Source: Paracoccaceae bacterium
GTDB taxonomy: Bacteria > Pseudomonadota > Alphaproteobacteria > Rhodobacterales > Rhodobacteraceae
Direction of reading: 5' to 3'
NCBI GenBank assembly: GCA_018607905.1
Contig: JABBAP010000067.1
Coordinates: forward strand, 1 to 64,000
DNA: 64,000 nt
The notes below the pieces were generated by a model. That model saw only the letters and a program-made list of their open reading frames with translations, did no database searches and was not told the DNA's origin. A program made the position numbers and the translations under genes. This document shows, one piece after another, positions 7,076-21,869 of the stretch (the first letter of the stretch is position 1; every line of letters starts with the position of its first letter).

Positions 7076-7738
7076 TTAAGTGACATCGCCGCGAAACATC
7101 TGCCAATGGATTTTGATGGATGGCATGAACAGTAGCAAGAAGCCGAGAACCACAAAACAGGTGATCATGGCTGGTATCCACAGGACTGCGCAAACAAGGC
7201 CGACAAAGCCTGCGATTTTTATCGCTTCAGCGCGATCAAACCAGCGGCGCATGGTCAGGTAAAACAGTTTGCCGCCATCCAGTGGTTGCACAGGGATCAT
7301 GTTCATGCAGAACAAGAAAAAGTTAATGTTTGCAAACCAGTAGACATATTTGGCGGCGAAATAGAGGCTGCTTTCTTGCACAAACGGGAATGCCAGTGAA
7401 CAGATCGCCCAAAGCGCGAGGTTCACGATTGGGCCCATTGCGACGACAAATTCTTCCTCGGCGCGGGGCAGGGCGCGAACGCCTGCGCAAAAACCGCCAC
7501 CGCCGTAGATCATCACACGTTTGACAGCGTGGCCTTGGACGATTGTGCCCCAAGCGTGGCCAAATTCATGCAGGAAAATAGCCACTACGATCAACAAGAA
7601 GTAGATGACTTTGTCGAGGTAGATGCCGTTCAGCGGTTGAATGAAGATGAACGCCAAAAACAGAATGGATGCGCCGATTTCAACGGGAACCCCGAAGGGG
7701 CCGCGAAATGTGAAAATAGGGGTGTCGTTTGTGAACAC
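7076..7738 (-). CDS. Site-2 protease family (M50) membrane metalloprotease
   Basis: This 220-residue integral membrane protein has the M50 zinc motif HEFGH (57-61) inside a hydrophobic helix and the second ligand motif PLDGG in a later segment (MIPVQPLDGGKL). It lacks PDZ and CBS domains, so it is the short form of the family. Such proteases cut within the membrane, often releasing anti-sigma factors or other regulators. The substrate here is unknown. It starts MFTNDTPIFTFRG and has about five hydrophobic segments. It stands alone, convergent with uvrD, and the DUF1127 gene upstream has its own terminator. Confidence 0.9.
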   Translation of the reverse strand: MFTNDTPIFTFRGPFGVPVEIGASILFLAFIFIQPLNGIYLDKVIYFLLIVVAIFLHEFGHAWGTIVQGHAVKRVMIYGGGGFCAGVRALPRAEEEFVVAMGPIVNLALWAICSLAFPFVQESSLYFAAKYVYWFANINFFLFCMNMIPVQPLDGGKLFYLTMRRWFDRAEAIKIAGFVGLVCAVLWIPAMITCFVVLGFLLLFMPSIKIHWQMFRGDVT

Positions 7739-13642: not shown

Positions 13643-13660
13643 GCCCAGATATTTCAAAAA

Positions 13661-13689
13661 AACGCCCTGCATTTGCGGGGCGTTTTTTT
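13661..13689. terminator. Bidirectional terminator between convergent genes
   Basis: AACGCCC and GGGCGTT flank a ten-base loop, with AAAAAA before and TTTTTTT after. It can stop both the small protein transcript (+) and the long leftward Ter/SPFH operon ending with the rhomboid gene (-). Confidence 0.88.
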
Positions 13690-13702: not shown

Positions 13703-14446
13703 TTACCGTCTGCGACGGCGCACGATGGGTATGGTTGTGGGCGCGTTTGTGGGAGGATGAGGCGGTTTGCCCTCAGTTTGGACCCAGAATGTTTTTGCAC
13801 CCCGTGTGAACCAGAACGGCATTGCAATCAGCAAGCCAGAGGCAAAGCCGCCGATATGCGCCCAATAGGCGATGCCGCCCCCTGAGCCTGTGTTCGATAG
13901 CCCGCCAAAGATTTGCATCGCAAACCAGCCACACAACACGGCCCAAGCGGGCAGGGTGAAGGTTTTAAAGAACACAATGAAGATGATGACGATATCAACG
14001 CGCGCTTTGGGATAGAGCAAAAGATACCCGCCCAAGACCCCTGCAATTGCCCCAGATGCGCCGACTATTGGAACGGCTGAGTTCGGATCGGCGAGGATTT
14101 GGATGCCAGAGGCTGCGAACCCGCACAGCAGGTAGAACAGCAAGAACGGGACGTGGCCAAATGCGTCTTCGATATTGTCGCCAAAGATGTACAGAAACAG
14201 CATGTTGCCGATGATGTGCATCCAGCCGCCGTGCAAAAACATGCTGGTCACAAGGGTTTCGAATGCGGAACCTGACGTGATTTCGGCGGGCACGATGGCC
14301 CAAGCATCCCAAAACGCACCGAGCGCGGCGGGATCGCCGCTGAGGGCGGGGTAATAGGCGAGAAAGACCACGATGTTGGCCACCAGCAGCGCGTAGGTGA
14401 CAAAGGGTGTGTTGCGCGACGGGTTGTGGTCGCGAATGGGGAACAT
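13703..14446 (-). CDS. Rhomboid family intramembrane serine protease
   Basis: This 247-residue protein has six hydrophobic helices. The catalytic serine lies in GASGAIAG, the catalytic histidine in AHIGGFASG, and the family motif HGGWMHIIGNMLFLYIFG is in the second helix region. It cuts substrates within the membrane. The C-terminal tail is proline-rich and ends in five arginines in the cytoplasm. It is the last gene of the leftward block and its ATG overlaps the zinc-ribbon gene's stop region by one base, so it is probably co-expressed with that stress module. Its substrate is unknown. Confidence 0.93.
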   Translation of the reverse strand: MFPIRDHNPSRNTPFVTYALLVANIVVFLAYYPALSGDPAALGAFWDAWAIVPAEITSGSAFETLVTSMFLHGGWMHIIGNMLFLYIFGDNIEDAFGHVPFLLFYLLCGFAASGIQILADPNSAVPIVGASGAIAGVLGGYLLLYPKARVDIVIIFIVFFKTFTLPAWAVLCGWFAMQIFGGLSNTGSGGGIAYWAHIGGFASGLLIAMPFWFTRGAKTFWVQTEGKPPHPPTNAPTTIPIVRRRRR

Positions 14447-15555
14447 CAGGTTTGCCCGTTCAAAGCGATGACAGCGCCAAGAAGGCCCGCGATGATCAGG
14501 CCAGAAATGATGGCGATTGCGATCTTGATTTTGGAATATGGGCGTTCACCACGCACCGCACCCGTTTGGCCGTTCACCACAAAACGATAGGTCGTGCCAC
14601 GGTATTTATAGGCCGCCATCCAGATCGGCAGCAGGACGTGTTTGAAGGTGACATCAGAAATGGCGGTGTCGACGTGGTTCACACGCTGTTTGTCACCACC
14701 GATATCGAATTTTACATCCCGCAGGATCATGCGATCCATATGATGGCGGGCCTCATCAAATCCATCATCAAGCGCGATGGTGTAACCTTCGGCGCGCAAC
14801 CCTGCGAGGTATTGCGGATCGTAGGGTGTGAGTGCGGAGAGATCCCACGGAGCGAGCGCGTCGGTGTAGGATTTGGGGAGCGATTTAGAGGCGAGAACCA
14901 GTACATCGTCAAAGAATCGCGCGACGCGGCCTCGGGCTGGGGACCAACGGACCTTTTGGACTTGGCGGTTTTCGACTACGGATTTGCCGTCCCGTTTTAC
15001 GCGCACCTGTTCGGTGACATAGTAAATATCGCCGCGCGATCCTGAATAGGTGGATTTCGTGTCGGCGTCATAGGTCCAGTAAGGGACATAGATGCCCTGC
15101 AAAGCGCGGCCCTTGCGGGCGTATTCCTGCAATCCGTTGGGGGCAAACCAAAGCGAGCCGAGCCAATCTGTCATTTGGCGGCGCGCGTTGGGTTCGCTCA
15201 GGACGAATGGAACCAGCGCGCGGGGTTTGATCTGGCGTTCTGTCCCCGTGCCGGTGACCACGGGTGTGGCGCAAAACGGGCATTCGGCGGCGTGTGTTTT
15301 GCTGTCAAATTCCACATGCGCGCCGCAATTTTCACAGCTGATGGTGTTGATTTTTGCGGTTTCGGATTTTGGCAGCTCATCACGCAGGGCTTGTTTGAAA
15401 TCCAACTCCTTGATCGCGGTGGCGTTTGTGGTGGAGCCGATGGGCTCAACCGCGCCGCAGTGATCGCACAGCAATTGGTTCGTGCCAGGGGCAAAACGCA
15501 TGTCCGAGCCGCAGGTGTTGCAGGGGAATTTATGTTCAATCGGGGCGGCGTCCAT
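14446..15555 (-). CDS. Zinc-ribbon protein with C-terminal membrane anchor (YdjG-like)
   Basis: The 369-residue protein opens with two TFIIB-like zinc ribbons: CNTCG...CDHCG (residues 12-35) and CENCG...CPFCA (near 74-96). A long beta-rich middle follows, then one C-terminal transmembrane helix (about 345-366). Annotated relatives are often mislabelled as primosomal protein N'-like; there is no helicase domain. In Bacillus subtilis a similar membrane-anchored ribbon protein (YdjG) works with an SPFH protein (YdjI) to place PspA at the stressed membrane. Here the SPFH partner is two genes upstream. The function in this organism is inferred from that context. Confidence 0.8.
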   Translation of the reverse strand: MDAAPIEHKFPCNTCGSDMRFAPGTNQLLCDHCGAVEPIGSTTNATAIKELDFKQALRDELPKSETAKINTISCENCGAHVEFDSKTHAAECPFCATPVVTGTGTERQIKPRALVPFVLSEPNARRQMTDWLGSLWFAPNGLQEYARKGRALQGIYVPYWTYDADTKSTYSGSRGDIYYVTEQVRVKRDGKSVVENRQVQKVRWSPARGRVARFFDDVLVLASKSLPKSYTDALAPWDLSALTPYDPQYLAGLRAEGYTIALDDGFDEARHHMDRMILRDVKFDIGGDKQRVNHVDTAISDVTFKHVLLPIWMAAYKYRGTTYRFVVNGQTGAVRGERPYSKIKIAIAIISGLIIAGLLGAVIALNGQT

Positions 15556-15560
15556 TTAGA

Positions 15561-16124
15561 TCAAAGCCATTTGTGAAAGGTCTTAGGGACCATGATGCGC
15601 AAGGCGTTGTCGCGCAAGCGAAAGTGACGCCAGATGTGGAAAAGCGCGTGGACCGCGACAATAGCTGCGAGGGTGTAGAATTGGATGATGTGAAAATCGC
15701 CAACGTATTCGTTTAGGTGCCGCCAGCCCATTGGTGGTGCGATTGGAAGGAAGCCGCCTGCTTTTAGCAGCACACTAGAGGTAAGGCCGAGCAGAAACCC
15801 TGTGAGGCCGACGGTGAACAGGCCCCAGATGATGGTTTTATGCACGATCTGATGGAACCGGCGCGCCCAAGCGGGCAGTTTTGGGCCAGGTTTGCCCGCA
15901 AGACCACGGCGCATGAGGTCGGCTGTCCACAGGATCGATATCGCCACGAAGATCACCGCAAGGTTGGAATGAACGAGGAAGGCCTCGCGCCCGAAAGGGA
16001 CAACGTCTTTGGGTTGAACGAGGACGAACCAGATCAACAGGGGCAGCATGATCCAGTGGGTCCATTTAAGCAAAGTGCGTCGATGGGGCCATCTGGATCG
16101 GAGGTGCGTGAGTGCTGCCCGCAT
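15561..16124 (-). CDS. Cytochrome b/b6-type (b561-like) membrane protein
   Basis: Starting at the ATG at 16124 the protein has 187 residues and four hydrophobic helices with histidines suited to two b-type hemes: KWTHW in helix 1, LVHSNLAV in helix 2, FHQIVHKT before helix 3, and VHALFHIWRHF in helix 4. The longer in-frame reading would overlap the SPFH gene by ~97 bases and lacks family sequence, so it is rejected. It probably shuttles electrons across the inner membrane. Its place between the SPFH and zinc-ribbon genes, with 5-base gaps, is unusual and suggests a redox link to the membrane-stress block. Confidence 0.82.
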   Translation of the reverse strand: MRAALTHLRSRWPHRRTLLKWTHWIMLPLLIWFVLVQPKDVVPFGREAFLVHSNLAVIFVAISILWTADLMRRGLAGKPGPKLPAWARRFHQIVHKTIIWGLFTVGLTGFLLGLTSSVLLKAGGFLPIAPPMGWRHLNEYVGDFHIIQFYTLAAIVAVHALFHIWRHFRLRDNALRIMVPKTFHKWL

Positions 16125-16129
16125 CGGGA

Positions 16130-17242
16130 TTATGCGGCTGGCGGTGGCGGTGGCATTACGGTGAACAGTTGCGCCAGTTCCATGACATCGACAGCGCGTT
16201 TCCAGCCGTCTTGCCCTGCGGTCCATACGTGGGTTTCACGACTTAGCGATCCATCTGCGGCCATGCGACCAAGAGAGGCGCGTGAAAACGGGCCTTTGGT
16301 TTCGCCGTTCACGGCGGTGTGCCAAACTTTTTCCACGGGTGGCGGCGGCGGCGTCATCGCGGTTGGTTGGGCGGCCACGGGGCGTTGTCCCCACGGGCCT
16401 TGGTTCATTTGTTGGGCCATTGCCATGCCCATGCCCGCGCCCATACCAGCAGCCATGGAGCCACCCGCGGCGCTGTCAGGATTGCTCATGGCTTCGGCGG
16501 CGGAGTATTTCATGAACTGATCAAGATCCCCTGCCAGCCCCATGGAGGTGCGTTTATCGAGCGCTTCTTCTACCTTTGGCGGCAGAGAGATGTTTTCGAT
16601 GTAAAGATTTGGAATGGAGAGGCCAAATTCAGCCAATGCGGGCGCAATTTTGCTGGCAAGAAGTTTGCCCAGATCAATGGTGTTTGCCGCCATATCAAGG
16701 ACGGGAATGCCAGAGTTGGCGATTGCGGCAGAAAACTGCGTGGTGATGATATTGCGGATTTGATAGCTGATTTCATCCATCGTGAATTCGCCGTCTGTGC
16801 CGACAACTTCGGAGAGGAATTTGGCGGGATCAGATACTTTGATTTCATACGTACCATAGGCGCGAATGCGCACGGGGCCAAATTCTGGGTCGCGGCAAAT
16901 GATCGGGTTTTTCGTACCCCATTTTAGATCGGTGAACCGCGTTGTGTTGACGTAGTAAATCTCTGATTTGAAGGGGCTTTCAAAGCCGTGATCCCAATAT
17001 TGCAGGGTCGTCATGATCGGCATGTTGTTGGTTTCCAACATATAAAGCCCAGGCGCGAACACATCAGCAAGCTGGCCTTCGTGCACCATGACGGCCGCCT
17101 GGCCTTCGCGCACTGTCAGTTTCGCGCCGTATTTAATTTCGTGGCCTTCGCGCTCAAAACGCCAAACCATTGTGTCGCGTGTGTCGTCTGTCCAGTGGAT
17201 GACGTCTACAAATTCACCTGTCAGAAAATCTAAAATACCCAT
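16130..17242 (-). CDS. SPFH-domain protein with C-terminal GYF_2 domain (YdjI-like)
   Basis: The protein has 370 residues. Residues ~20-240 form an SPFH/virion-core-like domain (AAVMVHEGQLADVFAPGLY; NPIICRDPEFGPVRIRAYG). A glycine-, alanine- and methionine-rich linker (AAGGSMAAGMGAGMGMAM) and a proline patch follow. It ends with a GYF_2 domain of about 50 residues (WHTAVNGETKGPFSRASLGR). SPFH proteins build ring- or cage-like scaffolds on membranes, and GYF_2 domains bind proline-rich peptides, including possibly its own. There is no membrane helix, so membrane contact needs a partner, plausibly the zinc-ribbon protein. Confidence 0.88.
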   Translation of the reverse strand: MGILDFLTGEFVDVIHWTDDTRDTMVWRFEREGHEIKYGAKLTVREGQAAVMVHEGQLADVFAPGLYMLETNNMPIMTTLQYWDHGFESPFKSEIYYVNTTRFTDLKWGTKNPIICRDPEFGPVRIRAYGTYEIKVSDPAKFLSEVVGTDGEFTMDEISYQIRNIITTQFSAAIANSGIPVLDMAANTIDLGKLLASKIAPALAEFGLSIPNLYIENISLPPKVEEALDKRTSMGLAGDLDQFMKYSAAEAMSNPDSAAGGSMAAGMGAGMGMAMAQQMNQGPWGQRPVAAQPTAMTPPPPPVEKVWHTAVNGETKGPFSRASLGRMAADGSLSRETHVWTAGQDGWKRAVDVMELAQLFTVMPPPPPAA

Positions 17243-17254
17243 GGGGTTCTCCTG

Positions 17255-18193
17255 TTAAATTCGGTTTGATTTCAATGCGTCGTTGGCCACAGAGCGCAGC
17301 AACGGGCGGGCGCGTTCCGGGGTCATGCCCACGCGCAGGCGCGGATCATAGAGCATTTTGAGAAGGATTTCGTCGTGCTTGGTGAGCAGGGCGAACTCCT
17401 CGTCGTCGTTAAAAATGGAGGGGCGGATGTTGGGGTCATCGTTGGCTAGGCCGAGCGCTTGGGTCATCTCTTCCTCGATGCAGGAGCGACGCATTATGGC
17501 GCTGTGTTCTGCTTTCACGAGGACAACGGCACCCGAGTAATCGGTCGGGCTGTCGGCGTTGGACAATGCGTAGGCGACGCAAAAGATGTTGCGCGGGCTG
17601 GTTTCAATTTCGCGCACGATTGACGGCAGCAGTTGCGGGACCGTGGCAGCCAAAAGTCCGGGGTCAATTTGTTGCTCGTCGCGGTTGAGGAATAACATCA
17701 CAAAGTTGGCGTTTTTGATGTTGGTGACGCGAATGTTCAGCCCCGTAAGTGCGCCCAAACGTGCGGCAAATGAGCTGACGAGTTTTTTGTCTTTTGCTTT
17801 TTGAACCGCAGTGACAGAGGCGCCGAAATGCAGCCCGATGCGTACAGGTTTTTGCCAACGCCGCAGGTAGGATGATGTTTGCTCTTCGACAAAAACGCCT
17901 GCCTCGTTTGTGTATTCATCATACAGCGCGACCCGTTCAAAATTGCGCACCAAATCATCTGCGGTGAACGGCGCGTCTTTTGGACTATGTTCTTGGCGCA
18001 GTTTACCTTGGGATAAAAGGCGGGCTTGGACGGAGGCGTAGTAGGATTTAATCCGCACACTTTCGTCCGAAACAGCAGGCTTGATCATGGCTGGTCTGGG
18101 TTTTGGGGTCAGCACAGGGTTGGGCGCAACAATGGCTTCCTCGCAGCCAGCCAGAAACAAGGTGATCACCAGCAGAATTCGGCCAAGTGTCAT
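17255..18193 (-). CDS. DUF2927 lipoprotein, zincin-like fold with altered active site
   Basis: The start is the ATG at 18193, giving 312 residues with a lipoprotein signal (RILLVITLFLAGC, lipobox LAGC); the TTG at 18223 would put residues ahead of the signal. The mature protein is exported and lipid-anchored. Near the C-terminus CIEEEMTQALGLAND resembles a metzincin helix but has EExxQ where HExxH is expected, as I recall for DUF2927 generally, so peptidase activity is doubtful. DDEEFALLTKHDEILLKMLYD follows. It lies 12 bases from the SPFH gene and 37 from TelA, inside the operon, and would be the block's periplasmic sensor or partner (inference). Confidence 0.8.
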   Translation of the reverse strand: MTLGRILLVITLFLAGCEEAIVAPNPVLTPKPRPAMIKPAVSDESVRIKSYYASVQARLLSQGKLRQEHSPKDAPFTADDLVRNFERVALYDEYTNEAGVFVEEQTSSYLRRWQKPVRIGLHFGASVTAVQKAKDKKLVSSFAARLGALTGLNIRVTNIKNANFVMLFLNRDEQQIDPGLLAATVPQLLPSIVREIETSPRNIFCVAYALSNADSPTDYSGAVVLVKAEHSAIMRRSCIEEEMTQALGLANDDPNIRPSIFNDDEEFALLTKHDEILLKMLYDPRLRVGMTPERARPLLRSVANDALKSNRI

Positions 18194-18230
18194 TACAGAG
18201 TCGTTGCCCCTTTGGTGCGCCAAGCGCGCA

Positions 18231-19418
18231 TTACGCGCCTGTGCTGGTTCCGATATTGTCGCCGGTGCCTGTTGATTTGGCTTTGGCAGCGGACAGAGTT
18301 TTCTTCAACTCGTCTTCCATGGTGATCAGTTCTTTTTCAGCGTCCGCACGTTTTGCTTTGCCTTCATCCGCGATGGCCAAACTCTCTTCGATGGTGTCGA
18401 TAAGATATTGGTTGGCCTTTTTGATGCTTTCGATGTCGAACACGCCGCGCTCCATTTGCTTGCGCACTTCGCGGTTGGCTTCTTGCAGGTTGGCCGCGTT
18501 GGATTCCAGCAACTCGTTCGTCAGATCATTGGCCTGTTTCACCACTTCGGCAGCTTCACGCGAACGGTGGATCGTTACGGCTTGGGCCAATTGGGTTTCC
18601 CACAGCGGCACCGTGTTCACGAGCGTTGAGTTGATTTTTGTGACCAAAGATTTATCGTTTTCTTGGACAAGACGGATGGATGGCAAGGATTGCATTGTGA
18701 CCTGACGCGTAAGTTTCAGATCGTGCACACGGCGTTCCAGATCATCACGTGCGGCGCGCAGATCGCGCAATTCCTGTGCTTTGATAATGCCTTTGTCTTT
18801 GGACGCTTTTGCGACCTCTTTTTCTTTGGCAGGGATGATTTTATCATCCAGTTCTTTCAATTTCTCGGTACCCGCAGCTATATAAAGCGCAAGTTCGTCG
18901 TAGAATGCGAGCGTTTTGCCATACAACTTATCAAGGGATTTGATGTCTTTGAGCAGCACATGTTCGTGCTCCAGCAGCTCGTCCGTGATGCGGTCGATCT
19001 GGCCTTGCACGTCTTCGTAACGGGCCATGAATTTCGCAACGGGTGCGGCGCGGCCAAGGATTTTTTCCCACCACGATAACTTGCGGTTCGGGTTCAGCTC
19101 GTCGATGGAAAATCCACGGATCGAGGTGACCATGTTGCGTAGGCTTTCACCCGCTGGACCAACGTCTTTGTTGCGTACACCAGACAGCATCTCTTGGCTG
19201 ATCAGTTGCATTTCTTCTTGCGCCTTGGAACCAAACTCGATGATGGACTGTGTGTTTTCCATATCAATCTCGTCCATGCGGGACTTAATCGACATTTGCA
19301 GATCTGGCGTCACTTCGGACACCACGATCAACTCGTTCTTTGGCTCTGGCAGGACCACGGCATTGATTGCTTCGACTTCTTTCAGGGCGCCTGCGGCTTT
19401 GGTACGGATATCGGACAT
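18231..19418 (-). CDS. telA: TelA/KlaA-type toxic anion resistance protein
   Basis: This 395-residue, almost wholly helical coiled-coil protein matches TelA/YceH: VVSEVTPDLQMSIKSRMDEI near the start, NPNRKLSWWEKILG near residue 120, and the MQSLPSIRLVQENDKSLVTKIN and NTVPLWETQLAQAV motifs in the second half. TelA was named for tellurite resistance on plasmids, but chromosomal copies belong to Ter-linked membrane and chemical stress systems. It lies 12 bases from the XpaC-like gene, its usual partner. Confidence 0.93.
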   Translation of the reverse strand: MSDIRTKAAGALKEVEAINAVVLPEPKNELIVVSEVTPDLQMSIKSRMDEIDMENTQSIIEFGSKAQEEMQLISQEMLSGVRNKDVGPAGESLRNMVTSIRGFSIDELNPNRKLSWWEKILGRAAPVAKFMARYEDVQGQIDRITDELLEHEHVLLKDIKSLDKLYGKTLAFYDELALYIAAGTEKLKELDDKIIPAKEKEVAKASKDKGIIKAQELRDLRAARDDLERRVHDLKLTRQVTMQSLPSIRLVQENDKSLVTKINSTLVNTVPLWETQLAQAVTIHRSREAAEVVKQANDLTNELLESNAANLQEANREVRKQMERGVFDIESIKKANQYLIDTIEESLAIADEGKAKRADAEKELITMEDELKKTLSAAKAKSTGTGDNIGTSTGA

Positions 19419-19430
19419 GGGTGTCTCCTG

Positions 19431-20342
19431 TTAACTGGCCTTGAGGCCCTCTTGTTTCAGTCGGTCGCGAAGAACCTCGATTTCAACATCAAGATCGGTT
19501 CGGTTGTCCAGCATCATGGTTTCACGCTGGTTATTAAAGCTGGTTTCCAAATCCGTAAGCAAGGATTCGTATTTCGTTTTGGCGTCTGTATCACGGCTTT
19601 TGCTGTAAAGATCGGCAAATTTGATCGTCGCATCGCGTGCGCCCTTTAAATAGACGCCCAGAAATTTGCGTGCGCCCGACAAATCGCGTGGATCGTCCTC
19701 AACCGCACGAAACATTTCACGCACGGATGTCGCGAGGGATTCGACGCGGGCTTCCATCTTACGATCACCAATACGGCGCGATGCGGTGATGGTTTCCGCC
19801 AGCAATCCTTCGGCTTTGTCCACGGCTTTGGCGACCCGTTCGGTTTCAAATTCGGACATGCCCTCCATGCCTTTTTTGCGCAGCGGGTCGATACCAAAAC
19901 TGAACACATGGGCCGCCATTGCGAGGATGGCGAACACGATGGCAGCAGCGATACCGTCGCCTGTGGCAAAGGCCCCAGCCATGAAAACGCCGATACCCGT
20001 CAGGGCGGTGGCGAACATCTTGCGTGGGATCGCAGGGGGACGCGCGACTTTGCGGTCTTGGTACGCGGCCTCGGCAATCAGGCCGTCGCGCAGCAGCCAA
20101 GCGGCCAACAGAAGGATCGCCAGCGCGCCAAATTCGGTGAGCATTCCAGTGGCGTCGCCACGGCGCATTTCGCCGATGCCTGAAAACAAAAGAGGCAGCG
20201 GCGCGATAAACAGGAATTTTGAGCGGAAGCTGGAGTTTACGACACGGCGACCGCGAAACTTGCTTGCGGGGAATGCGGGCGCAGGGGTTGCGTTTTTCGG
20301 GCTACCTTCAGGGCTGTGTTGCCCACCAAATTTCTGCGCCAT
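19431..20342 (-). CDS. XpaC-like membrane protein (5-bromo-4-chloroindolyl phosphate hydrolysis family)
   Basis: From the ATG at 20342 the protein has 303 residues. A basic N-terminal tail, four hydrophobic helices (about residues 40-160) and a C-terminal helical domain (VAKAVDKAEGLLAETI; ARKFLGVYLKGARDATIKFADLY) match the XpaC family, which is regularly paired with TelA. The family name comes from a screening phenotype and is not a proven enzyme activity. The start was chosen because the longer frame runs through a separate small ORF. TGATG couples it to that small ORF. Confidence 0.85.
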   Translation of the reverse strand: MAQKFGGQHSPEGSPKNATPAPAFPASKFRGRRVVNSSFRSKFLFIAPLPLLFSGIGEMRRGDATGMLTEFGALAILLLAAWLLRDGLIAEAAYQDRKVARPPAIPRKMFATALTGIGVFMAGAFATGDGIAAAIVFAILAMAAHVFSFGIDPLRKKGMEGMSEFETERVAKAVDKAEGLLAETITASRRIGDRKMEARVESLATSVREMFRAVEDDPRDLSGARKFLGVYLKGARDATIKFADLYSKSRDTDAKTKYESLLTDLETSFNNQRETMMLDNRTDLDVEIEVLRDRLKQEGLKAS

Positions 20343-20434
20343 CAGGACAGGCTTCCAAAGCTGCCGAATGACACCGTGAAAATGGTGGCGACCAGTATAA
20401 TATAGGATATCCACTGCAAAGTTGGTGCAGACAC
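20342..20434 (-). CDS. Possible 30-residue membrane peptide upstream of the XpaC-like gene
   Basis: A GTG at 20434 lies six bases after GGGGGA and opens a 30-codon frame. It encodes a short polar N-terminus, a hydrophobic run (WISYIILVATIFTVSFGSF) and a serine-rich end. Its TGA overlaps the XpaC-like ATG as TGATG, the same coupling style seen elsewhere in this window. A strong ribosome site, a single transmembrane-like segment and coupling together argue for a real small protein, but the length makes chance possible. I do not recognise a family. Confidence 0.45.
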   Translation of the reverse strand: MSAPTLQWISYIILVATIFTVSFGSFGSLS

Positions 20435-20583
20435 GCTGTTCCCCCGAGATAACGGCATTAGGCCCGTTCGGGGTTTAATATATGACGCCGTGGTGGCGGA
20501 TACTAGGGTTTAGACGCGGATTTTATACCGCGTCCTTTGTTTCGACGCTCTACGTCGGCAGATTTCTGCCTTTCGCGCTGGGT

Positions 20584-21399
20584 TTAGTGCCCGTCTGGAC
20601 CGCGTTCTTTGGCCAGTTTGCGTTGATAGCCAGTTTGCACAAGTTCAACCAAAACCAGCACAACGACCGAGAAATAGAAGGTCATCTTGGACATTGGCAA
20701 CAATGCGTAGCCGAAGACTTTGATCTGAAGGCTATCGTCGTGCATGGCGTGCGCCGCCGCTGGGCCTGCCTCGCCGAGCAGAACAACACCGACAATCAGC
20801 AGGATAAAGAGGCCAAGAACTTCGTACATGCGGTTCTTTTGCAGGAATGCCGTGACCCCATCTGCCAGCACCAGCATGGCAAGGCCAGAGGTGAGGATCG
20901 CGATGGCAAGGACAGGGAAGACATCAGTGATCGCAAGTGCGGACAGGATGCTGTCAAAGCTGAACACAAGGTTCATGATCACGATCAGCATCACAACTTG
21001 GCGCGCGGATTTGCCTGATTTACCATCTGCATCGTGGCCCAAATCGTGAATTGTGAGCATGTGGGTGATCTCTTTGAAGGCGGTGTACATGATGAAAACG
21101 CCACCAAAGATAAACACGACAGTCGAAAAGTTGACGCCGCCTGTGATGATGCCTGGCATATCAAAGATGTAGAACGGATCTTTGAGCGCGTCGATCAGCT
21201 GGATCATCGTGAACAATAGGACGACCCGCAGAACCACGGCGATAATGATGCCCCAAAAACGGACACGTTTCTGGTATTCCTTGGGTGCGCGTTGGCTCTC
21301 GATTGAGATGTACAGCAGGTTATCAAAGCCAAGAACGGCCTGAAGAAAGATCAAAACGCCAAGGTTGGCGAGGTTTTCAATCGTTAATAAGTCAGCCAT
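20584..21399 (-). CDS. TerC family integral membrane protein
   Basis: From the ATG at 21399 (after AAAAAGGGGAAC) the protein has 271 residues and about seven hydrophobic helices. The TerC acidic motifs are present: AVLGFDNLLYISIES in the first helix and VFSFDSILSALAIT in a later one, suited to metal binding. TerC proteins are linked to tellurite resistance and, in several bacteria, to manganese export or metalation of exported enzymes. It is the first gene of the leftward block and would tie that block to metal or envelope stress. About 150 bases with two short hairpins (20513-20534, 20557-20570) separate it from the small ORF, so a second promoter is possible. Confidence 0.9.
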   Translation of the reverse strand: MADLLTIENLANLGVLIFLQAVLGFDNLLYISIESQRAPKEYQKRVRFWGIIIAVVLRVVLLFTMIQLIDALKDPFYIFDMPGIITGGVNFSTVVFIFGGVFIMYTAFKEITHMLTIHDLGHDADGKSGKSARQVVMLIVIMNLVFSFDSILSALAITDVFPVLAIAILTSGLAMLVLADGVTAFLQKNRMYEVLGLFILLIVGVVLLGEAGPAAAHAMHDDSLQIKVFGYALLPMSKMTFYFSVVVLVLVELVQTGYQRKLAKERGPDGH

Positions 21400-21659: not shown

Positions 21660-21869
21660 ATGGCCAAAGGTATGGTCAAGTGGTTCAACGCCGACAAGGG
21701 GTACGGTTTCATTGAGCCAGAAGGGGGTGGAAACGATATTTTCGTCCACATCTCTCAAGTGCAAGCGTCTGGGTTACAGTCGCTCGAAAACAATCAACCG
21801 ATTGAATTTGAAATGGTCGATGGCGTGGATGGACGCCAGATGGCTGGGAACATCACGCTGACGCAATAG
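21660..21869 (+). CDS. Cold-shock protein, CspA family
   Basis: The product is a 69-residue single cold-shock domain. It has RNP1 (KGYGFIEPEG) and RNP2 (DIFVHISQV), preceded by MVKWFNADKG. It binds single-stranded RNA or DNA and melts RNA structure. The ATG at 21660 follows GAAGGGAATACGGTT. A structured leader lies upstream. The stop codon directly abuts the stop of the convergent pseudouridine synthase gene, with no base between them and no terminator visible. Confidence 0.96.
   Translation: MAKGMVKWFNADKGYGFIEPEGGGNDIFVHISQVQASGLQSLENNQPIEFEMVDGVDGRQMAGNITLTQ

Follow-up and report, generated by a model that had tools for sequence, protein, structure and literature searches.

A role of TelA and XpaC in tolerance of tellurite or xenobiotics has been recognised for a long time, but no mechanism has been assigned to them. 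In Listeria, the XpaC–TelA genes respond to bacteriocin, a TelA mutant was reportedly more sensitive to nisin and tellurite (Collins 2010, as cited in PMC12791056) and the tolerance mechanism is still termed unknown in this 2026 paper (PMC12791056). In Bacillus subtilis, PspA is positioned by the SPFH protein YdjI, which itself depends on YdjG and YdjH at the membrane (PMC8581546); YdjG has two zinc ribbons and a transmembrane helix, and YdjI, YdjG and YdjH are described as a trio (PMC11237479). The sigma-W regulon table of B. subtilis includes pspA-ydjGHI, xpaC-yaaN and yceC-H (PMC3498285). Here we analysed a block of nine genes at positions 13703–21399 of a 64,000-nucleotide stretch of Paracoccaceae bacterium (GCA_018607905.1, contig JABBAP010000067.1, positions 1 to 64,000; the window), in which XpaC and TelA stand together with an SPFH protein and a zinc-ribbon membrane protein (ZnR). 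We lean towards the view that the block is a membrane-stress operon joining XpaC–TelA, with a peptide of 30 amino acids (aa), to an SPFH scaffold and its zinc-ribbon anchor.

All nine genes are on the minus strand and seven match Pfam families, in agreement with the sequence-only reading of the window, which had placed nine leftward genes at about the same coordinates. From the peptide to the rhomboid gene, the eight genes are separated by −1 to 37 nt (peptide/XpaC −1, XpaC/TelA 12, TelA/DUF2927 37, DUF2927/SPFH 12, SPFH/cytochrome b 5, cytochrome b/ZnR 5 and ZnR/rhomboid −1). The gaps of mostly 0–40 bases claimed earlier are found in this part and not for TerC, which lies 149 nt upstream of the peptide. 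For comparison with relatives, 120 Rhodobacteraceae-type genomes, one per genus, were taken; TelA was found in 105 of these 120 genera, giving 105 one-per-genus loci, for which up to 20 kb around TelA was fetched where the contig allowed (shortest stretch 4.5 kb). The window's genes were sought in these stretches with hidden Markov models (HMMs), presence was scored by overlap-tolerant counts and only loci with sufficient contig entered the denominators. A second set of named loci comprised the best 80 of 585 and is biased to close relatives (the closest named species were Neptunicoccus sediminis, 89%, and Amylibacter, 79–83%); it overlaps with the first set, as three identical TelA proteins occur in both.

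The consensus order was [30-aa peptide]-XpaC-TelA-DUF2927-SPFH/GYF-(cytochrome b561)-zinc-ribbon protein. XpaC, TelA, SPFH and ZnR were on a single strand in 81 of 90 one-per-genus and 64 of 67 named loci; conservation of gene order in relatives, proposed beforehand as a check, was therefore found, and the union of XpaC–TelA with SPFH and zinc ribbon in one block held in both sets. Presence in the one-per-genus set was 99/105 for the peptide, 103/105 for XpaC, 99/103 for DUF2927, 96/102 for SPFH and 88/95 for ZnR, and the corresponding values in the named set were 74/77, 79/79, 74/79, 79/80 and 70/73. Median gaps across loci were 25 nt (XpaC/TelA), 8 nt (TelA/DUF2927) and 27 nt (DUF2927/SPFH). 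Large plasmids carry the block as well: in Pseudorhodobacter it extends from RluB to ZnR, and in Paracoccus from TelA to ZnR, XpaC being undetected in the one Paracoccus copy read. Order, tight spacing and co-occurrence show that most of the block is a conserved operon-like arrangement, which is presumably transcribed as a single unit. The wider claim that all nine genes make up one system was not sustained: in the one-per-genus set TerC was present in 19/99, cytochrome b561 in 16/92 and rhomboid in 1/89 loci, and DUF2927 is absent from the four cores outside the family described below.

Beyond the family TelA is rare: of 241 class genomes, 22 exceeded the cut-off, and four of those belong to the family itself. 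The out-of-family set consisted of 18 TelA loci from class genomes (two further fetched loci fell inside the family); in two loci, L149 and L151, TelA was reported by Pfam and missed by our HMM. Four out-of-family loci (L139, L140, L142 and L144, which fall under three family codes, L142 and L144 sharing a genus) contain XpaC, TelA, SPFH and ZnR in this order, and neither DUF2927 nor RluB was matched in their fetched stretches. Since these loci retain just those genes, the minimal core is XpaC-TelA-SPFH-ZnR. In L140 the end of an FtsW/RodA-like open reading frame was seen by eye immediately before XpaC.

The arrangement might be a matter of mere synteny, that is, of a conserved chromosome segment with rluB upstream and a carbohydrate-kinase-like gene downstream and no functional tie between the genes inside it. 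RluB was indeed upstream in 83 of 101 one-per-genus loci, and in 46 loci a downstream family recurred that looked kinase-like by eye; because RluB is likewise conserved, part of the gene order is family synteny. As an explanation of the whole block we regard this as highly improbable, since the core is present without RluB outside the family, the genes have operon spacing and a coupled peptide, and both halves persist in the six genomes in which the block is split.

Among the 120 genera, 104 had TelA and a strong SPFH match, 14 neither, one TelA only and one SPFH only (Fisher 3e-16); one genome, G059, with a weak PF13421 match barely over the cut-off, was scored as SPFH-absent. In both single-gene exceptions the gene lies at a contig end of an incomplete assembly. 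The TelA/SPFH state changed seven times, at least four of them on supported branches, in a 40-genome rpoB tree, which comprised 28 hand-picked carriers out of 105 and 12 of the 14 genomes lacking both genes (rpoB was not matched in the other two). Outside the family, eight of 237 class genomes had PF13421 at E≤1e-70, and seven of these eight carried TelA (E≤1e-60), versus 14 of 237 overall (p 4e-9). Six outside genomes matched PF13421 above 300 bits; in each of them ZnR adjoined SPFH, and five have TelA. In a phylum sample of 328 genomes, SPFH was within about 4 kb of TelA in all 23 TelA-bearing family genomes, and one more family genome had neither.

In six family genomes the block is split. 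Five of them (G083, G062, G004, G110 and G085) carry SPFH-ZnR on a separate contig, G085 being counted because about 9 kb of contig downstream of TelA contain no SPFH, and in G018 DUF2927-SPFH-ZnR lies 37 kb from XpaC-TelA. In all six, XpaC and TelA are still paired, SPFH and ZnR are still paired and neither half is lost; DUF2927 is with TelA in four, with SPFH in G018 and beside neither in G004. These genomes bear on the alternative that two independent membrane-stress modules share an operon just for common expression, without physical contact, which we consider possible if doubtful. In its favour, the split leaves each module whole, SPFH-ZnR stands alone in four other lineages and in B. subtilis both modules are in the sigma-W regulon as separate, unlinked operons (PMC3498285). 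The same co-regulation in so distant an organism is also the strongest external argument that the modules have a common function. Against independence, neither half occurs alone in the 120 genera except in the two contig-end cases, and correlations between distance matrices over 73 loci, which are descriptive only, were 0.62 for TelA–ZnR versus 0.39 for TelA–RluB and 0.46 for ZnR–RluB.

The peptide (20342–20434, 30 aa, GTG start) had been noted as a possible tiny membrane protein, and this suggestion gained much support. A related peptide precedes XpaC in 177 of 191 XpaC loci (100 one-per-genus, 75 named and two more, in overlapping sets), its stop overlapping the XpaC start codon in 105 loci and lying within 5 nt of it in 67; in the window the junction is TGATG. 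No relatives turned up in a control search of the opposite strand of these stretches, nor in the out-of-family cores of L139, L140, L142 and L144. Approximately, the consensus reads MSGTGLQKLAYVLLLALILGVATGGLGG, with many positions below half; it has one hydrophobic helix and a glycine-rich end, and a G-rich Shine-Dalgarno sequence lies ahead of it. Median non-synonymous to synonymous ratios (pN/pS; 171 trimmed peptides, 1071 non-independent pairs) were 0.61 in frame versus 0.99 and 1.59 in the shifted frames. No Pfam family matched the peptide, and a promoter-box scan upstream of it revealed no shared position. Judged by its conservation and reading-frame signal, the peptide is a real gene coupled to XpaC. 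XpaC itself (19431–20342; PF10112, 1.7e-27) is a membrane protein with two hydrophobic helices by hydropathy. Of the 105 one-per-genus loci, 12 carry an additional, diverged XpaC-like gene upstream of XpaC, for instance at 7133–8161 of L033.

The SPFH protein (16130–17242) combines a Band_7_1 domain (PF13421, 6e-99) with a C-terminal GYF_2 domain (2.7e-19) flanked by two polyproline runs (16130–16330), and has no membrane helix by hydropathy. Of 170 near-full-length relatives, 168 have PPP among their 15 C-terminal residues. Since GYF domains bind polyproline, contacts between SPFH chains, with GYF and polyproline as self-binding glue, are plausible. ZnR (14446–15555) matched no Pfam family over the cut-off; alignment and hydropathy point to two N-terminal zinc ribbons and a single C-terminal hydrophobic, transmembrane helix, as in YdjG. 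Over 31 aligned relatives C12, C15, C33, C74, C77, C92 and C95 were invariant and C30 was conserved in at least 90%.

The DUF2927 lipoprotein (17255–18193; PF11150, 8e-56) has a lipobox cysteine, C17, that was invariant in 71 of 71 aligned sequences. At the zincin site the motif is E-E-x-x-Q-x-x-G-x-x-N-D, within the consensus C-I-H-E-E-L-A-Q-G-L-G-L-x-N-D. The active metzincin motif is HExxHxxGxxH, and HExxH was nowhere found in 175 DUF2927 sequences; the motif, which is what marks the fold as zincin-like, is thus altered, in keeping with the altered zincin of the sequence-only reading, and DUF2927 is probably not a protease. Five named loci (L159, L160, L165, L166 and L186) have no DUF2927 between TelA and SPFH, and the lipoprotein can therefore be lost.

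From these parts we infer anchoring by ZnR, recruitment and action of TelA, and sensing by DUF2927. The operon might have arisen by fusion of two older modules, XpaC–TelA with the peptide co-translated with XpaC, and an SPFH scaffold with a zinc-ribbon anchor. The role of ZnR would be to tether a soluble oligomer of SPFH to the inner membrane, in the way that YdjG and YdjH do for YdjI in Bacillus, and the GYF domain of one SPFH chain would bind the polyproline tail of another, giving scaffold clusters. XpaC and the peptide could form the membrane seat of TelA, which the scaffold would position in the role that PspA–YdjH fills in Bacillus. DUF2927 might act as a periplasmic, non-proteolytic sensor or as a contact to peptidoglycan or the outer membrane; cytochrome b561, TerC and rhomboid would be lineage additions. 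A further step, that the block encodes a membrane-repair machine, usually working without PspA, in which SPFH-ZnR positions an XpaC–TelA–peptide client, with GYF–polyproline glue and a dead zincin as periplasmic reporter, is put forward tentatively and is in our view rather less probable than its failure.

Several results weigh against an operon in which the scaffold serves TelA. Besides the conserved RluB gene upstream, the other 14 out-of-family TelA loci had no SPFH match in the fetched stretch (weak XpaC matches were seen in some), and two outside genomes with TelA, G129 and G341, carry a PF13421 protein without a neighbouring ZnR. Beyond the class, the phylum sample contained four genomes with both TelA and SPFH, invariably on separate contigs; with no linkage there, linkage is restricted to Alphaproteobacteria in the sampled genomes. 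Co-absence is weakened as evidence because adjacent genes are removable by a single deletion, and the six split genomes are therefore more telling. TelA (18231–19418; PF05816, 1.5e-109), the genome's sole TelA match, is predicted to be soluble and all-helical, with two long helices (residues 125–204 and 207–308) in a long helical hairpin of moderate confidence, at a mean predicted local distance difference test score (pLDDT) of 63. A fold search with this model returned only generic helical proteins and no PDB match at E≤0.001, and, as to an ESCRT-III/PspA fold, comparison with the genome's single PspA sequence by hhalign gave a probability of 0.2, that is, no detectable similarity; PspA-like action of TelA therefore remains a proposal. 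PDB sequence searches with TelA, SPFH and DUF2927 gave nothing meaningful, and 119 pattern matches in viral contigs included no TelA relatives. Finally, the genome does contain a PspA relative, on another contig (G000:C55:13439-14032, E 8e-15; the gene is also numbered L289 4862-5542), so that the earlier statement that no PspA is present is right for the window and wrong for the genome. By eye, the PspA relative adjoins a TetR-like regulator, and no psp operon was recognised.

In the family as a whole just 23 of the 120 genomes had PspA over the cut-off; TelA is present in 20 of these by hand count, and 85 of the 105 TelA carriers had no PspA in this search. Most such operons therefore exist without PspA.

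TerC (20584–21399; PF03741, 5e-38), cytochrome b561 (15561–16124; PF01292, 2.7e-8) and rhomboid (13703–14446; PF01694, 1e-33) are optional members, as their low presence counts show; in the named set they were found in 42/73, 22/70 and 9/68 loci. Between SPFH and ZnR, the four-helix cytochrome b561-type protein is the most frequent insertion on the same strand (36 loci), and a second, distinct cytochrome-b561-like family was seen by eye at the same place in L177 and nine other loci. The rhomboid protease appears to be a clade-specific addition, all nine named loci with it being within the eleven best-matching ones. It is followed on its 3′ side by a terminator-like hairpin with a T-run (13654–13689, read by eye) and, 583 nt beyond the gene, by the elongation factor P (EF-P) gene, which was present in 1/89 one-per-genus loci. 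Between the RluB and TerC genes, a cold-shock-like gene of the plus strand was seen by eye (21660–21869). Anti-phage defence models run on six of the block's proteins gave no match.

TerC also raises the question whether this is a Ter-type operon that detoxifies metals or tellurite, TerC serving as the metal exporter. TerC neighbours the block here, and the family name of TelA points the same way; in the 42 of 73 named loci mentioned above TerC is upstream of XpaC, and its median gap to the peptide is just 92 nt in the 19 one-per-genus loci and 84 nt in 41 named loci. Gaps of at most 50 nt occurred in none and five of these, respectively, and TerC is possibly its own transcription unit. The detoxification reading seems quite unlikely, as TerC occurs in just 19 of 99 genera and no TerD-type domain was found among the genes scanned, a search confined to the block.

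In about 100 genera, TelA and XpaC are genetically tied to an SPFH scaffold; this conserved link provides a specific, testable partner for both and offers a handle on how long-puzzling TelA may work. The operon is present in most sampled family genera and includes a conserved 30-aa membrane protein without a Pfam family; some Rhodobacteraceae genera are genetically tractable.

Compared with known systems, the block shares the TerC and TelA families with Ter systems and yceCDEFGH, the yce genes being presumably members of these families; unlike Ter systems, it has no TerD-type genes and its TerC is optional. With xpaC-yaaN of B. subtilis and lmo1966-lmo1967 of Listeria it shares neighbouring XpaC and TelA families, going by the published descriptions of those pairs; both families are over the Pfam cut-off and adjacent in the window, where, unlike there, the pair is followed by the scaffold pair and preceded by the coupled peptide. 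ZnR relatives adjoin SPFH genes on plasmids of Vibrio, Comamonas, Tsukamurella and Enterococcus, SPFH being directly followed by the same zinc-ribbon family as in the window; these pairs stand alone, without TelA or XpaC in the 7 kb read on either side. In Enterococcus they are accompanied by a YdjH-like TPM gene, a set that matches the described YdjI-YdjG-YdjH trio (PMC11237479). The likeness to pspA-ydjGHI of Bacillus lies in PF13421, matched by the window SPFH protein and by the B. subtilis genome (at 1e-20 the sole genome-level match among 14 control genomes), and in an SPFH partner with two zinc ribbons and a transmembrane helix, as described for YdjG; in the Bacillus scaffold a YpeB/NTF2-like domain comes after the ribbons. 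The differences are that XpaC-TelA takes the place of PspA and YdjH, that the SPFH protein ends in GYF and polyproline whereas that of Bacillus ends in a zinc ribbon, and that DUF2927 and the 30-aa peptide are extra; no PspA domain was found among the block's genes, the genome's only match being that on the other contig, and no TPM domain in a search confined to the block. A search of open-licence literature returned no description of TelA-XpaC united with SPFH-ZnR and a coupled 30-aa peptide. Each half is already known, and their fusion as a conserved operon with a coupled peptide appears, within that literature, to be new.

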